A DNA stretch of 53,084 bases. Source: Desulfosporosinus nitroreducens. Its GTDB lineage: Bacteria > Bacillota > Desulfitobacteriia > Desulfitobacteriales > Desulfitobacteriaceae. Positions 25,538 to 26,198 of the stretch are shown piece by piece (position 1 is the stretch's first letter; the number at the start of each line of letters is the position of its first letter). The stretch is taken from assembly GCF_023897015.1 (NCBI RefSeq), contig NZ_JAMHFY010000033.1, forward strand, positions 1-53,084, in the 5' to 3' direction. The notes beneath the pieces were generated by a model. The model made no database searches and was not told where the DNA came from. It was given only the letters and a program-made list of their open reading frames with translations. Both the position numbers and the translations under genes were made by a program.

Positions 25538-25849
25538 CTAATTCTTGGGAGAAATGAGAATTTCGCCTTGTTTCACAAGACCTAGCTGTTCTCGGGCTAA
25601 CTGTTCGATGTAACTTGGTGTATTTAACCGAGTAATCTCATCATTAAGAATCTTTTCCCGTTGAAGTAATTTGGTCTTTTCTTGATTCAATTGAGCTAGT
25701 TGATCCTCAACCCGAGTTCGGAGTTTCCATATCTGCCAAGCTGAGCTCCCAACTATCGCCATAAACACCACCAAAATAAGAATAGAACTGCGACGAATTC
25801 GGACCCTTTGGCGATTTTTTGGGTTACTCTTCAGACGAGCCCTCTTCAT
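25538..25849 (-). CDS. divIC: Septum formation protein DivIC/FtsB
   Basis: DivIC is a bitopic membrane protein of the divisome that pairs with FtsL. It has 103 residues. A basic N-terminal cytoplasmic segment (residues 1-20) is followed by a membrane helix (about 23-40, ILILVVFMAIVGSSAWQIW) and an extracellular coiled coil (about 45-78, RTRVEDQLAQLNQEKTKLLQ). It ends with the family block YIEQLAREQLGLVKQGE. Its start overlaps the 3' end of the HTH gene by 26 bases, so the two are translationally coupled and share the DnaA-box leader upstream. Confidence 0.93.
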   Translation of the reverse strand: MKRARLKSNPKNRQRVRIRRSSILILVVFMAIVGSSAWQIWKLRTRVEDQLAQLNQEKTKLLQREKILNDEITRLNTPSYIEQLAREQLGLVKQGEILISPKN

Positions 25850-26066
25850 CCAATTCCTCTCCTCCTATACCAAGTTCCCCGCCCGGAATGATACAGACAA
25901 TTTCATATCCTTTACTTCTTGCGCGGGTTAATAGAGTCGCGACCGAACTCTGACTGAGATGAAGCCGTTTTGCGATGTCTTCCAGCGACTTTCCACTTTC
26001 CTTGAGAATCACTGCTTGGCGTTCCCGAAAACTAAGTTTTTCCAAGCCTCGAATTTCTAGTTGCAC
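25824..26066 (-). CDS. Small helix-turn-helix protein (sigma-70 region 4 / LuxR-like)
   Basis: I place the start at GTG 26066 (80 residues, VQLEIRGLEKLSFRERQAV). A GTG at 26126 in frame adds 20 residues, but those codons are the DnaA-box leader and read as unlikely protein. The helix-turn-helix is clear: LSFRERQAVILKESGKSLEDIAKRLHLSQSSVATLLTRARSKG (about residues 10-52), close to sigma region 4 or LuxR-type domains. The acidic C-terminus (GGEELDEEGSSEE) has no known domain. It overlaps divIC. There is no counterpart at this place in B. subtilis. It might control its own operon or the sporulation genes nearby; this is unproven. Confidence 0.7.
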   Translation of the reverse strand: MQLEIRGLEKLSFRERQAVILKESGKSLEDIAKRLHLSQSSVATLLTRARSKGYEIVCIIPGGELGIGGEELDEEGSSEE

Positions 26067-26089
26067 TGTGGCACGCCCTTGCTTAAAAG

Positions 26090-26121
26090 TTATCCACAAA
26101 TTGTGGATAGATTGTGGACAG
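26090..26121. promoter_or_regulatory. Cluster of three DnaA-box-like sites
   Basis: TTATCCACA (26090-26098) is a perfect DnaA box. TGTGGATAG (26102-26110) is one base from the reverse consensus and TGTGGACAG (26113-26121) two bases. The first two form an inverted pair 3 bases apart; the third repeats the orientation of the second 11 bases later. They lie in the leader of the HTH-divIC unit, downstream of the predicted start of transcription. DnaA binding is inferred only from sequence. Confidence 0.65.
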
Positions 26122-26135
26122 ATCACCTACAATCT

Positions 26136-26157
26136 GTTTACAAACCGTTTACAAACC
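26136..26157. repeat. Tandem 11-mer GTTTACAAACC
   Basis: Two perfect head-to-tail copies (26136-26146 and 26147-26157), one DNA turn apart. Each is nearly symmetric (GTTT-AC-AAAC), so they look like adjacent protein-binding sites. They lie between the promoter and the DnaA-box cluster. Confidence 0.6.
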
Positions 26158-26163
26158 AACGGG

Positions 26164-26198
26164 TAATTCCATTATAGCACTCAGCATTAAGGAATCAA
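26164..26198 (-). promoter_or_regulatory. Sigma-A promoter for the HTH-divIC unit
   Basis: On the minus strand TTGATT (26193-26198) is followed after 16 bases by TATAAT (26171-26176). The predicted start near 26164 leaves a leader of about 98 bases to GTG 26066 that contains both the tandem 11-mers and all three DnaA-like boxes. Confidence 0.6.

Follow-up and report, generated by a model that had tools for sequence, protein, structure and literature searches.

The window (by which we mean the whole 53,084-nt stretch of Desulfosporosinus nitroreducens DNA that was analysed) is one contig (C26) of a 5.46-Mb genome in 95 contigs. On its minus strand lie, in this order, yabP, yabQ, a gene for an 80-aa helix-turn-helix (HTH) protein, divIC and a gene for an S1-domain protein; the long ORF that follows is taken, by eye, to be spoIIE. 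The divIC product clears the Pfam DivIC cut-off comfortably (53.8 bits vs 28.9). A sigma-A-type promoter, TTGATT-16-TATAAT, had been predicted upstream of the HTH gene (26198-26171, minus strand) and can be read there in the sequence. Between this promoter and the HTH gene, at 26090-26155 of the same strand, six tandem units succeed one another with an exact 11-bp period (Table 1).

Table 1. Features of the locus. Positions are those of the window unless another stretch is named; array units are numbered in the order in which the minus strand is read.
Feature	Position	Strand	Basis
-35 element TTGATT	26193..26198	-	sequence; invariant in 28-locus genus alignment
-10 element TATAAT	26171..26176	-	sequence; invariant in 28-locus genus alignment
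11-mer GTTTACAAACC, two copies	26136..26146; 26147..26157	+	read from sequence
Array unit 1, TTTGTAAACGG	26145..26155	-	11-bp register, genus loci and 54 representatives
Array unit 2, TTTGTAAACAG	26134..26144	-	11-bp register, genus loci and 54 representatives
Array unit 3, ATTGTAGGTGA	26123..26133	-	11-bp register, genus loci and 54 representatives
Array unit 4, TCTGTCCACAA, two-mismatch DnaA-like box	26112..26122	-	TGT invariant, CACA nearly so (genus alignment)
Array unit 5, TCTATCCACAA, one-mismatch DnaA-like box	26101..26111	-	genus alignment; box scan
Array unit 6, TTTGTGGATAA, inverted perfect DnaA box (TTATCCACA on +)	26090..26100	-	kept as TGTGNATAA in genus alignment
Two-mismatch DnaA-like box CTGTCCACA	26113..26121	-	read from sequence
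One-mismatch DnaA-like box CTATCCACA	26102..26110	-	
Perfect DnaA box TTATCCACA	26090..26098	+	
AAGGG, likely Shine-Dalgarno sequence of HTH gene	26076..26080	-	sequence; invariant in genus alignment
HTH gene, 80 aa, GTG start at 26066, sigma-70 region 4 type	25824..26066	-	PF08281 5.4e-11; start region conserved
divIC, 26-base overlap with HTH gene	25538..25849	-	PF04977 1.7e-14
Short DnaA-like protein	L302:1417-2394 (own genome C22, domain IV 241983-242180); L296:1698-2711; L297:970-1956		

The original prediction described two kinds of element in this leader: a pair of tandem 11-mers and three DnaA-like boxes, one of them perfect and the other two near matches. All of these exist, but not as neighbouring elements. 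The 11-mers are the first two units, and the boxes the last three, of a single array in one 11-bp register. The genome contains a single instance of the doubled motif GTTTACAAAC N0-3 GTTTACAAAC, and none of its reversed control. DnaA-like boxes as such are ordinary in the window, with 52 sites at no more than one mismatch from TTATNCACA against 51.1 expected; the signal lies in the clustering, phase and conservation of the boxes, not in their number.

Within the genus the arrangement is conserved. Of its 29 genomes, 28 yielded the HTH gene; in the remaining one (G026) it may lie past a break, since the S1 gene there sits at a contig edge. TTGATT, TATAAT, one or more exact TTATNCACA boxes and an unbroken chain of at least three YGT units are present in every one of the 28 leaders, while the bases between them change; the boxes predicted here have thus come through comparison with relatives. 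A search for five TTGT units, two mismatches allowed, gave 26 rows in 17 of the 29 genomes, 21 at this locus and five elsewhere (reversed control, 11 matches); the window's own genome has no match because its units read CTGT and CTAT. That the leader might be protein-coding, a possibility named at the outset as refuting the prediction, can be set aside: in 10 of the 28 loci a stop lies in the HTH frame no more than 60 nt upstream of the start, and leader lengths fall in all three frames (11, 10 and 7 loci).

The HTH gene reaches well beyond the genus. Of 73 genomes of the order, 61 have it, two of these as partial matches; in the class the figure is 65 of 82, at a more permissive threshold that lets in other HTH proteins too. 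A survey sampling the Bacillota evenly, in which the 14 best candidates per genome were scored and absence is not proof, gave 155 of 398 genomes and 109 of 267 genera. Among the named loci—the best 80 of 170 confirmed—are those of Acididesulfobacillus, Carboxydothermus, Moorella, Syntrophomonas and Sulfobacillus. In all 80, an ORF of at least 89 aa begins at -44 to +6 bases relative to the HTH stop; judged by eye, it is DivIC-like. The same simple scan, used elsewhere, took the wrong frame in some GC-rich loci. Ten downstream genes of distant loci were tested against the Pfam DivIC cut-off, with seven above it and three below.

From 174 loci (97 + 17 + 60), 54 representatives were chosen whose HTH proteins are less than 80% identical. 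Loci with fewer than 130 bases upstream were dropped before clustering, two with truncated HTH genes (L069, L070) were left out, and only identical 150-base leaders were merged beforehand, such that some species appear twice among the 174. One record (L138), labelled a deltaproteobacterial MAG, is perhaps mis-binned. Over 130 bases of upstream sequence in the representatives, pairs of TGT separated by 11 bases number 117, against 4.0 (sd 2.0) in shuffled leaders. Separations of 8, 9, 10, 12 and 13 bases give 3, 5, 2, 5 and 4 pairs, which is background, and separations of 22 and 33 give 84 and 49. At a leader length of 200 bases, 42 of the 54 have at least three YGT units in an unbroken chain, where 0.21 are expected from shuffles; none of 510 control windows from the same loci has one. 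Because the representatives share ancestry, the shuffle figures overstate independence. Shuffles and control windows are the grounds on which a chance origin is rejected.

A chain of three is absent from the 200-base leaders of 12 representatives; in L127 and L254 not even two units are chained. Some units in four leaders (L112, L212, L231, L245) read CGT instead of TGT at the same 11-bp step, and the conserved core may therefore be YGT. In the leader of L236 (G199), about five tandem 11-mers reading TTGGGATAAGC replace the TGT units; they lie near an inverted DnaA box and have the same period but a different core. Of 52 leaders scanned for a consensus promoter at the array, 40 gave none, and of the 12 promoters found three are probably spurious; in distant lineages the scan was largely negative. 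Where the promoter is plausible, the first TGT falls 3 to 28 bases past the -10 element in seven representatives, and touches it in two, L144 (of the Sulfobacillus benefaciens-like type) and L261.

DnaA boxes, too, are strongly enriched. The exact TTATNCACA box occurs 36 times, in 28 of the 54 representatives, against 0.46 in shuffles and one in the reversed control, and TTGTNCACA occurs 34 times, in 27; the 510 control windows hold them in six and four cases, respectively. The 130-base leaders of 26 representatives have no exact TTATNCACA, and 16 have neither type of box within 200 bases. Several conserved boxes between promoter and gene, as expected of a DnaA-regulated promoter, are present here, with an exact box in 28 of 28 genus loci and 28 of 54 representatives. 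The boxes keep to the register: 49 of 68 pairs of an inverted box and an upstream TGT[AC] are spaced at a multiple of 11. Their third base, moreover, depends on orientation. Forward boxes read TTGT 27 times and TTAT 8 times, inverted boxes TTGT 7 times and TTAT 28 times (Fisher p 3e-6, boxes taken as independent). Either choice keeps TGT on the same strand and in the same phase, as would be expected if a second protein reads TGT.

Which gene does the array accompany? A strict three-unit pattern ending in TGTNCACA gave 15 matches in 14 of 35 HTH-bearing genomes (reversed control, none), 14 of them upstream of the HTH gene; 21 of the 35 have no match. In 19 genomes in which no HTH gene was found, 30 of 31 DivIC-family matches yielded loci, FtsL- and FtsB-like paralogues included; a TGT chain of three occurs at none of the 30, and the exact box at two. 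In family f3, counted as 15 loci with the boxed G068 set aside, all 15 have the HTH gene and YGT chains of at least two, 13 have chains of at least three, and none has TTATNCACA or TTGTNCACA. Twelve loci from other genera of family f1 have the exact box in 11 cases and a chain of at least three in 11. Judged by family f3 and by its linkage, the array accompanies the HTH gene and can exist where DnaA boxes are missing.

Two members of another genus (g9) are suggestive, and only that, because both are deletions: in G044 (L070) the HTH gene is truncated and the array partly visible by eye, in G043 (L152) the gene is a remnant and the array is gone, and divIC is intact in both. Co-occurrence of array and HTH gene may reflect neighbours lost together. 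Comparison through the S1 gene of genomes without the HTH gene was uninformative, most matches being to other S1 proteins.

The HTH protein belongs to the sigma-70 region 4/GerE-like class (PF08281, 42.4 bits vs a cut-off of 25.7; PF04545, 26.3 vs 24.1). Region 4 domains read TTGACA-like DNA. An AlphaFold model of the L044 relative comprises a strand, a three-helix HTH and a strand, with a mean pLDDT of 77.5 and a poor C-terminal tail. The PDB folds nearest to it are sigma region 4 and LuxR/GerE domains, alike in the three-helix core over about 45 residues, mostly to about 1 Å, though none at E <=0.001. What sets the protein apart from both is that it stands alone, at 80 aa, with flanking strands and an invariant EIRG-E-L-RERQ head. 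We found no study of the family in the open-access literature.

The array is a real, deeply conserved, phased element, nearly unique in the genome and linked to the HTH gene. From it we infer a binder, repression by binding, and a link to the cell cycle, as follows. A candidate protein that reads YGT (mostly TTTGT) once every 11 bp would occupy the leader immediately past the -10 element, reaching that element itself in some lineages. The likeliest candidate for this role is the product of the next gene, the small sigma4/GerE-like HTH protein, which would keep its own operon, and with it DivIC, at a fixed level. A protein oligomer on the array would stand in the way of initiation or of early elongation. 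Many lineages have start-proximal units that double as DnaA boxes in the same register, forward TTGTNCACA or TTATNCACA and then inverted TGTGNATAA. DnaA, perhaps as DnaA-ATP and cooperatively, and the HTH protein would then share or contest the same turns of DNA, and this sharing would give divIC transcription a replication-cycle input. On balance we favour this reading, a composite operator that probably combines autoregulation by the HTH protein with in-register DnaA boxes as the replication input to divIC.

DnaA control of divIC, as first suggested, survives in part: the boxes are conserved and the input is still live, but the array is tied more closely to the HTH gene than to the boxes, and DnaA alone is therefore probably not the whole story. 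The companion suggestion, that the HTH protein itself binds the 11-mers, also remains live as far as the sequences can tell.

The main rival to the composite operator is DnaA acting by itself. Strong boxes would anchor DnaA, weak TTGTNNNNN 9-mers 2 bp apart (11-bp period) would fill progressively with DnaA-ATP, HTH-divIC would be silenced or timed, and the HTH protein would act elsewhere. According to the available portions of PMC6727663, low-affinity arrays of E. coli oriC hold four sites separated by 2 bp, hence an 11-bp period, beside strong boxes, and need neighbouring bound DnaA. The enrichment of boxes speaks for this rival, as does the presence of TTGTNCACA in other DnaA-box clusters. 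The likeness is incomplete, however: the array here lies in a promoter leader, most units share just TTGT with the box, and in family f3 all 15 loci retain the array without an anchor box. Nor does DnaA alone account for the orientation bias of the third base, or for the lack of an array at the divIC loci of genomes without a found HTH gene. We consider it rather unlikely, if still a serious contender.

Stretches from the dnaA region tell against it as well. No TGT chain of three occurs in three dnaA-region stretches (L034, L035, L300) or in three DnaA-box clusters (L030, L031, L032). L033 has one, on the minus strand. On the stretches examined, we reject the idea that the array is common to oriC or to other DnaA-box clusters.

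Some of these regions deserve a remark in their own right. In L030:1499-1630 (own genome C33:73498-73629), five copies of TTATCCACA and one of TTGTCCACA are clustered between ORFs that resemble, by eye, tsaD and 5-formyltetrahydrofolate cyclo-ligase; in B. subtilis, too, DnaA boxes are clustered near gcp (tsaD). In L031:1014-1108 (own genome C4:127613-127707), three exact DnaA boxes lie on one strand between genes. There is also a second, short DnaA-like protein of 325-337 aa, with the ATPase domain and the DnaA C-terminal HTH but without the N-terminal domains, encoded between LysR-type and phosphofructokinase-like genes (Table 1). Among 27 genomes searched, a second Bac_DnaA_C match occurs in the window's own genome and in seven of seven closed genomes of family f1, with a weak one in G050.

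The converse possibility, that the array is simply the operator of the HTH protein and that the likeness of its inner units to DnaA boxes is of no consequence to DnaA, we regard as improbable. It fits the way in which the array stays with the HTH gene and, in family f3, is retained where boxes are missing. Yet 36 exact boxes, where shuffles give 0.46 and the reversed control one, with the free base of the consensus truly free, are hard to explain without DnaA.

More doubtful still is a DnaA titration or inactivation site in the manner of datA, near the origin and with no role in divIC transcription. The locus had been described as away from oriC, and away it is, yet near: in the three closed genus genomes measured, it and dnaA are 64, 67 and 82 kb apart. 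In 27 of 27 closed genomes dnaA is nearby, 26 within 300 kb (median 106 kb) and one at 512 kb. This is, however, the location of the whole yabP-to-spoIIE gene block, which could be the reason for the nearness; and the array, with its few strong boxes, is placed between promoter and start codon and goes where the HTH gene goes. Least credible of all is a leader-mRNA hairpin controlling translation, for although the two convergent arms around 26090-26110 are self-complementary in the window, the strict 11-bp TGT period needs no RNA, and the free base of one arm varies without regard to that of the other (6 of 13 representative pairs can pair, against 5.9 if the columns are independent, and 27 of 69 when all loci are counted), a pattern in keeping with DnaA boxes rather than with an RNA stem.

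Known systems offer parallels to the composite operator. MraZ of the dcw cluster is likewise a small DNA-binding protein that heads a division operon with tandem direct repeats in its own promoter region; according to the available portions of PMC8475190, it represses that operon and binds the repeats, whose motif in M. genitalium occurs nowhere else. The likeness is one of arrangement only: regulator gene, tandem-repeat candidate operator and division gene in one unit. The HTH protein here matches sigma-70 region 4, the repeat motif and the operon differ, and DnaA boxes lie inside the array; sigma-70 region 4 and other HTH families are among the Pfam and NCBIfam matches listed for the protein, and MraZ is not. 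On the DnaA side, the accessible parts of PMC8203912 and PMC11019786 report that DnaA binds the ftsL promoter of B. subtilis in vivo, linking DnaA to a membrane divisome gene of the FtsL/DivIC type, albeit another gene in another lineage, and with neither an HTH partner nor a phased array described in those parts. In the open-access literature we found no description of the array, no paper that brings together DnaA, divIC and a DnaA box, nothing on the HTH-divIC gene pair, and no report of binding at its leader by DnaA or the HTH protein.

A single DNA element before divIC thus combines, in a shared register, DnaA boxes with what is probably the operator of a dedicated regulator, and it points to a family of HTH proteins found in 155 of 398 Bacillota genomes. 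It is possible, and we raise it tentatively, that in the HTH protein DnaA has a dedicated partner or competitor, the two co-assembling on the array or excluding each other, and so coupling the state of replication initiation to the supply of DivIC. If true, this would be a hard-wired switch from replication to division across a large part of the Bacillota.
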